A DNA stretch of 64,000 nucleotides, from positions 1 through 64,000 of the forward strand of contig JAJFJU010000026.1 in NCBI GenBank assembly GCA_021773645.1. Reading direction: 5' to 3'. The stretch comes from Gammaproteobacteria bacterium (lineage in GTDB: Bacteria > Pseudomonadota > Gammaproteobacteria > HK1). The notes beneath the pieces were generated by a model. That model saw only the letters and a list, made by a program, of their open reading frames with translations. It did not search any database and was not told where the DNA came from. Shown here piece after piece: positions 50,903 through 51,574 of the stretch. Each line of letters starts with the position of its first letter. Position 1 is the stretch's first letter. The translations under genes were made by a program, and so were the position numbers.

Positions 50903-50930
50903 AAAAAAACGGCCCTCTCGGACCGTTTTT
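50903..50930 (-). terminator. Duplicate copy of the tRNA-Gln terminator
   Basis: The hairpin ACGGTCC-GAGA-GGGCCGT followed by seven Ts on the minus strand is identical to the one at 51063-51091. It ends the repeat element described at 50939-51062. It is preceded by AAAAA, so it could also work in the other direction. Confidence 0.75.
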
Positions 50931-50956
50931 CTTAGCATGGCTGGGGGACAAGGATT
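50903..50956. repeat. 54-bp direct repeat, copy 1 (terminator plus tRNA-Gln 3' end)
   Basis: Positions 50903-50956 and 51064-51117 are identical over 54 bp. Each copy holds a terminator hairpin and the last 19 nt of tRNA-Gln including the CCA. Only copy 2 belongs to a complete tRNA. The unit is 161 bp apart centre to centre. Confidence 0.9.
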
Positions 50957-51062
50957 ACTCAGCACATCCCTGTGCTTCGCCCCTACGGGGCCCGCCTGCG
51001 GCGGTTCAAAATTGTTCCAAACAATTTTGTCGAACCAAGCTTCTCATCCTTATCCCCCAGCC
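50939..51062 (-). repeat. tRNA-3'-end-bounded multi-hairpin element
   Basis: This 124-nt stretch is closed by 17-bp inverted arms (50939-50955 and 51046-51062, one G-U type mismatch) derived from the tRNA-Gln acceptor/T side (GGCTGGGGGA). Inside are four consecutive hairpins: AGCAC/GTGCT (50961-50976), GCCCC/GGGGC (50979-50991), CCGCC/GGCGG (50992-51004) and a 10-bp CAAAATTGTT/AACAATTTTG (51007-51029) framed by GGTT/AACC. The layout looks like an over-sized cloverleaf and is followed by its own terminator. No coding frame fits. Origin and function are unknown; a mobile tRNA-derived repeat or a structured RNA are the main possibilities. Confidence 0.7.
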
Positions 51063-51091
51063 AAAAAAAACGGCCCTCTCGGACCGTTTTT
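51063..51091 (-). terminator. tRNA-Gln terminator
   Basis: On the minus strand the hairpin ACGGTCC-GAGA-GGGCCGT, followed by eight Ts, starts about 12 nt after the tRNA CCA end. It should stop transcripts of rplM-rpsI-tRNA-Gln. Confidence 0.85.
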
Positions 51092-51117
51092 CTTAGCATG
51101 GCTGGGGGACAAGGATT
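51064..51117. repeat. 54-bp direct repeat, copy 2 (terminator plus tRNA-Gln 3' end)
   Basis: This is the original copy of the 54-bp repeat; it overlaps the 3' end of the complete tRNA-Gln gene. Copy 1 at 50903-50956 is the displaced duplicate. Confidence 0.9.
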
Positions 51118-51172
51118 CGAACCTTGGTTGGCGGAGTCAGAGTCCGCAGTCCTACCACTAGACGATCCCCCA
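51099..51172 (-). tRNA. tRNA-Gln (CTG)
   Basis: A 74-nt minus-strand cloverleaf starts TGGGGGA and ends TCCCCCAGCCA with an encoded CCA. The anticodon stem GCGGA/TCCGC encloses loop CTCTGAC, giving CTG. The T-arm GGTTCGAATCC is intact. It begins 9 nt after the rpsI stop, so it is probably processed from the ribosomal-protein transcript. Confidence 0.96.
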
Positions 51173-51181
51173 AATTGCGGT

Positions 51182-51574
51182 TTAGCGCTTGGAGAACTGT
51201 GGCCGTTTGCGGGCTTTATGCAGGCCGACTTTCTTACGCTCCACCTCACGGGCATCGCGAGTCACGAAACCCGCCTGACGCAGGACCGGACGCAGGGTTT
51301 CGTCGTAACGCATCAGCGCACGGGTGATGCCATGACGGATAGCGCCCGCCTGACCGGTACCGCCGCCGCCTTTGACGTTGACTTGGATGTCAAAGGTATC
51401 GAGCATCTCTACGGTTTGCAGCGGCTGCTGCACCACCATGCGAGAGGTCTCACGGCCAAAGTATTCATCCAGCGAACGTTTGTTGATGACGATGTTGCCG
51501 GTGCCGCGGCGAAGAAGTACGCGTGCGGTGGAAGACTTGCGTCGGCCGGTGCTGTAATAGGTTTCGTCTGCCAT
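51182..51574 (-). CDS. rpsI: 30S ribosomal protein S9
   Basis: The 130-aa protein has the S9 pattern [17 protein letters not shown] at the start, [19 protein letters not shown] in the middle and the basic C-terminus [17 protein letters not shown]. It lies 9 nt after rplM and reads toward tRNA-Gln. Confidence 0.98.

Follow-up and report, generated by a model that had tools for sequence, protein, structure and literature searches.

Behind the tRNA-Gln gene of the window, by which we mean the whole stretch of 64,000 nucleotides analysed here, lies a multi-hairpin element that, judging from covariance models and gene context, is very probably a divergent relative of the tRNA-linked RtT repeats. 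Its central hairpin chain, a core of 70-75 nt, recurs inside tRNA copies, inside dispersed repeats and inside its own hairpins, and is likely to be a mobile insert separate from the tRNA-derived arms that enclose it.

Results

Organization of the tRNA-Gln locus

The initial annotation had described an exact 54-bp duplication, made of a terminator and the last 19 nt of the tRNA, at a spacing of 161 bp, and this description holds: the two blocks (Table 1) are identical and 161 nt apart, whereas 500 shuffles of the region gave no direct repeat longer than 12 nt. The arms that it had drawn around a 124-nt stretch are real as well, but the 17 bp assigned to them and the length of the stretch were understated, the element between the repeat copies measuring 125 nt and its closing stem 18 pairs. 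The inverted copy in the 5' arm aligns to positions 51099-51129 of the tRNA 3' end and spans the whole T-arm, that is, further than its pairing with the direct copy, in which the segment 51046-51063 is the partner of the 3' arm. Read as RNA on the minus strand, the window carries behind tRNA-Gln an inverted and a direct copy of the 3' end of this tRNA. The core takes the place of the T-loop in the direct copy, between GGTTCGA and ATCC of T-arm-like sequence.

Table 1. Features of the element downstream of tRNA-Gln (positions in the window)
Feature	Position	Strand	Basis
tRNA-Gln (anticodon CTG), intact	51099..51172	-	ARAGORN; Rfam tRNA 61.3 bits
Repeat copy 1: last 19 nt of the tRNA and first terminator	51064..51117	-	Exact 54-nt repeat
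5' arm: inverted copy of the tRNA-Gln 3' end (T-arm and acceptor)	51033..51063	-	31 nt, 87%; repeat search and fold
hp2: perfect 10-bp stem, loop TTTGGA followed by ACA	51007..51029	-	Fold; comparison with orthologues
Core: 74-nt hairpin chain C-hp2-AA-hp3-hp4-GA-hp5-GAGTA	50956..51029	-	Held-out model R1 and core fold
3' arm: direct copy of the tRNA 3' end (ATCC...CCA), closing the element	50938..50955	-	Repeat search and fold
Repeat copy 2: 19 nt of the tRNA 3' end and second terminator	50903..50956	-	Exact repeat

The predicted RNA fold of the unit consists of the closing stem, one of the two longest in the family, followed by the hairpin chain and then by a terminator, with an energy of -88.6 kcal/mol against -50.6 +/- 4.1 kcal/mol in shuffles (z -9.2). 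The four successive hairpins noticed at the outset are seen in this fold, one of them with a perfect 10-bp stem (CAAAATTGTT/AACAATTTTG), together with a weak fifth; Rfam microRNA matches over the palindrome were dismissed as chance. Both terminators fold as 13-bp stems with a U run; a consensus terminator scan of the minus strand detected neither, despite this fold. Because a strong terminator stands between tRNA-Gln and the element, expression of the latter needs read-through. On the other side of the tRNA gene, 9 bases separate the rpsI stop from the tRNA-Gln start (51172-51182), and because the distance is so short the tRNA is probably co-transcribed with rplM-rpsI, in which case its processing would end that mRNA.

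Relationship with RtT and other known elements

The Rfam model of RtT (RF00391) matches the element over its full length (1-130) with 35.8 bits (E 1.8e-5), below the curated gathering cut-off of 45 bits. R1, a covariance model built from 21 cores located behind tRNAs, none of them from the genus of the window, matches positions 50952-51049 with 76.5 bits (E 1.5e-20) and E. coli RtT with 46.9 bits. As one and the same model recognizes both, the two elements are homologous, and we call that of the window divergent since it misses the Rfam cut-off nonetheless. In E. coli, RtT is repeated behind tyrT, and the annotation gives three copies there as RtT sRNA, a product of processing of the tyrT transcript. 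Like these copies, the window element stands directly downstream of a tRNA gene and on its strand, in a repeat unit that comprises the last 19 nt of that tRNA (exactly 19 nt of tRNA-Gln), and it shares with them an inverted arm derived from its own tRNA, the GAUGAGAA and GAGUAAU ends, the hairpin chain and the occurrence of tandem copies. It differs by the identity of the tRNA, which is tRNA-Gln and not tRNA-Tyr, by an hp2 of the long AAAATTGTT type, by the 18-bp arm, by a terminator in each unit and by the sub-cut-off score. RtT has also been found to hold a tandem-GA motif by CaCoFold (PMC7657543), and the number of rtT repeats varies in Salmonella (PMC2658671). The literature on the family beyond E. 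coli, as far as our partial coverage extends, contains nothing on insertion into loops; such a report may exist elsewhere.

A second Rfam family, the Aggregatibacter small RNA AaHKsRNA22 (RF02902), matches at the same place and on the same strand (32.3 bits, E 2e-4); the same hairpin chain is recognized across its whole length, but the score lies under the cut-off of 39.8 and the model lacks tRNA-derived arms. REP/BIME and other MITEs resemble the element in being small, non-coding, palindromic and dispersed, and cores do occur inside such repeats; yet the core stands apart as a module that unrelated REP and MITE families and tRNA copies have in common, it has no terminal inverted repeats of its own, and its association with Y1 (RAYT) transposases is weak. 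When MITE criteria are applied, the arms turn out to be copies of the host tRNA and not fixed element ends, and the core, without inverted ends, shows a junction of GA followed by C...GARTA. Rickettsia palindromic elements, which are small palindromic inserts entering genes of several kinds, share these general traits with the element but have other sequences.

A class-wide family with covarying stems

An exact-pattern search of 257 Gb gave 119 matches, about 70 of them without a tRNA within 400 nt; as some 230 chance matches are expected for so loose a pattern, only the tRNA-linked matches (50 loci) were used. Together with an RtT search in public genomes, they place relatives behind tRNA-Gln, Arg, Tyr, Ser, Lys, Pro, Glu, Val and Cys. 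R1 finds matches in 125 of 274 Gammaproteobacteria genomes sampled evenly from the class, and a tRNA lies within 900 nt upstream in 39 of the 65 matches examined. The 21 aligned cores have 97.8% of their cells paired and display 64 double-sided changes, compared with 13.3 in shuffles. The family follows a common plan, in which the inverted 3' end of the own tRNA leads through GGATGAGAACC and a short loop to GGTTCGA, and the core C-hp2-hp3-hp4-hp5-GAGTA is followed by ATCC and the remaining tRNA 3' end down to CCA. In Bacteroidota, RtT-like elements behind tRNA-Ser or tRNA-Cys (L009, L011, L065, L118), known from tRNA-linked pattern loci and R1, give weaker model matches and have differently shaped cores.

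The origin of the arms was examined in 45 non-redundant elements, which stand behind eight types of tRNA. Of 10 positions compared, the arm shares 5.56 with its own tRNA and 3.06 with other tRNAs (0 of 5000 permutations); beyond the T-loop, on the side that has no pairing with the 3' copy, it shares 2.60 and 1.79 of 6 positions, respectively (again 0 of 5000). The 5' arm of the window reaches 9 of 10 and 6 of 6. The idea of a tRNA-derived mobile repeat, raised in the initial annotation along with a search for relatives having conserved, covarying stems beside several tRNAs, finds support in this class-wide family, its strong covariation, the many tRNAs concerned and the likeness of the arms to their own tRNA; a single copy without relatives or compensatory changes is not what was found. 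Two points had escaped that first description: the family is already known, under the name of RtT, and the hairpin chain forms a module distinct from the tRNA-derived arms and occurs also away from tRNAs.

The core inside tRNA copies, repeats and its own hairpins

Filled and empty sites can be compared between sister species and within one genome. In one sister species of the window's genus (G001), the orthologous element holds a 71-nt nested hairpin chain in the hp2 loop, cleanly placed between TTTGGA and ACAA, whereas the window's own genome (G000) and the third species (G002) are without it; this nested insert is about 90% identical to the one in a tRNA-Arg element of G000, and the two may stem from one event. 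In genome G261, a MITE with a REP-like loop is present in about 40 full-length core-free copies (CTGGGA followed by GAGGG) and in at least 11 copies with the core at that same point, the filled copies probably going back to one insertion that was copied along with the MITE. Cores reside inside other dispersed repeats in G137 and G279. The core further interrupts the T-loop of a tRNA copy at four loci (L250, L269, L271 and, in the window's genus, L177) and the D-loop at two (L252, L262); the interrupted copies adjoin an intact tRNA of the same kind, and with the core removed ARAGORN recognizes a tRNA in three of the six. At L252, L262, L269, L271 and L177 the order is the reverse of that in RtT, the interrupted or partial copies preceding the intact tRNA. 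A tRNA-Ser (GCT) locus of G261 (L218) has two tandem cores in one T-loop position, joined at GGAGAC-CAAATG. Wherever the empty site is known, the core follows GA; R1, built on tRNA-linked cores, has a preference of its own for CGA ahead of the core, which biases any count of GA junctions in its matches, and we therefore take the rule from empty sites only.

History of the element in the genus

The element stands behind tRNA-Gln in all three species of the genus, and none was seen behind the rpsI-adjacent tRNA-Gln in any of the 13 other genomes of the taxonomic family with a readable site. As these 13 keep tRNA-Gln beside rpsI without the element, the simplest reading is that it was probably gained in the genus. 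Within each of the genomes G000 and G002 the two repeat copies agree at every position, and three positions differ between the two genomes; because identity within species goes together with difference between species, we interpret this pattern as concerted evolution by recombination. That G002, a separate assembly, has the same arrangement with different bases also disposes of the concern, raised at the start, that the duplication could be an assembly artefact. The G002 assembly breaks in the rpsI/tRNA-Gln region beside the element, where the start of its contig C30 and the end of C10 overlap. A DNA search of the window's own genome yielded no second close copy, a plasmid search gave no match, and the covariance model found two more members in the own genome: one behind tRNA-Ser(TGA) (L172, G000:C7:227728-227827), and a degenerate one behind tRNA-Arg(CCG) (L176, G000:C10:5033-5139), which carries a nested hairpin chain in its hp2 loop.

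Discussion

The explanation that we consider probable combines an arrangement related to RtT, a mobile core, duplication and recombination of tRNA ends, and RNA made by read-through. A mobile hairpin chain would enter folded DNA or RNA at a loop, immediately behind GA. Where the target is a tRNA gene, its insertion would come with a local duplication that leaves one intact tRNA, either upstream, as in RtT and in the window, or downstream, as with the interrupted copies. Recombination between the tRNA-end copies may then account for their identity, for tandem arrays and for expansion or loss of units, and the inverted arm would derive from the own tRNA. Y1 transposase (PF01797), considered as the mover, is weakly associated with the core: it occurs in 90 of 125 carriers and 84 of 149 non-carriers, a slight enrichment (odds ratio 2.0, uncorrected for phylogeny), and is absent from 35 of the 125 carriers.

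In its boldest form, a proposition to which we lend belief and doubt in equal measure, the RtT core would be a protein-less mobile element of 70-75 nt and four hairpins that inserts after GA in T- and D-loops of tRNAs, in REP and MITE hairpins and in its own hairpins, RtT RNAs being its tRNA-resident form. Insertions into tRNAs would have been survived because the event duplicates the tRNA end, and an element of this kind is not described in the literature that we searched.

A competing view, which we regard as a serious possibility but rate somewhat short of even, is that of a purely structural, selfish REP-like DNA repeat that lands at tRNA 3' ends and serves no function as RNA, its transcription and folding being by-products. 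The cores in MITEs and palindromes away from tRNAs, the degenerate and nested copies in the window's genus and the terminator between tRNA and element are all in keeping with it. The strong hairpin covariation of the 21 tRNA-linked cores speaks against it, although cruciform or single-strand folding of DNA could select likewise, and so does the report that RtT is transcribed and cold-induced in Thioalkalivibrio (PMC8092127).

It is improbable, in our opinion, that the host keeps the locus as a double terminator and tRNA-end decoy, which would shield the tRNA gene from integration or secure termination behind the ribosomal-protein operon. Both terminators are indeed intact and identical within species, and the tRNA follows rpsI closely; many relatives, however, have no terminator between tRNA and core (e.g., L021, L029, L133), thirteen members of the taxonomic family manage without the element, and the hairpin chain is left unexplained.

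Islands made by an integrase are usually recognized by a direct copy of a tRNA 3' end, and such a copy is present, as an attL/attR duplication would leave it after loss of most of an integrative element. This origin is very unlikely and already contradicted by the class-wide family: the same spacing class (about 120-200 nt) and the same core recur in dozens of genomes, an inverted tRNA-end copy is not expected from an att duplication, and, in line with the first description, which had held an island duplication to be inadequate, no gene, integrase or cargo lies in the 161-nt spacing between the tRNA-end copies. Most remote of all is a chance product of local replication slippage or template switching, of which inverted and direct copies are typical products and through which the arms may have arisen, since such an event cannot yield the same hairpin chain in 125 genomes and is contradicted by the match of the window to a held-out model.

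Returning to the mobile core and its tRNA-resident form, it seems reasonable to ask what RNA the locus could deliver. By analogy with E. coli RtT, read-through from rpsI-tRNA-Gln would produce an RNA with an 18-bp closing helix and a tRNA-like CCA end, which tRNA-processing enzymes would cut free. The element is a plausible source of small RNA, given that the annotation of its E. coli homologues is that of an RtT sRNA from the tyrT transcript, and we see an even chance that it gives a stable RNA product in the window's species.

RtT has so far passed for a peculiarity of the tyrT operon in E. coli. If our reading is true, it would represent a single aspect of a small repeat family that ranks among the more widespread in Gammaproteobacteria, as the 125 carriers among 274 sampled genomes suggest. 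We know of no described mobile element with a target preference for hairpin loops, and because filled and empty copies can be compared in one genome and across sister species, both the insertion mechanism and the enzyme are directly searchable. The family would then also give rise to new small RNAs linked to tRNAs and to interrupted tRNA copies.
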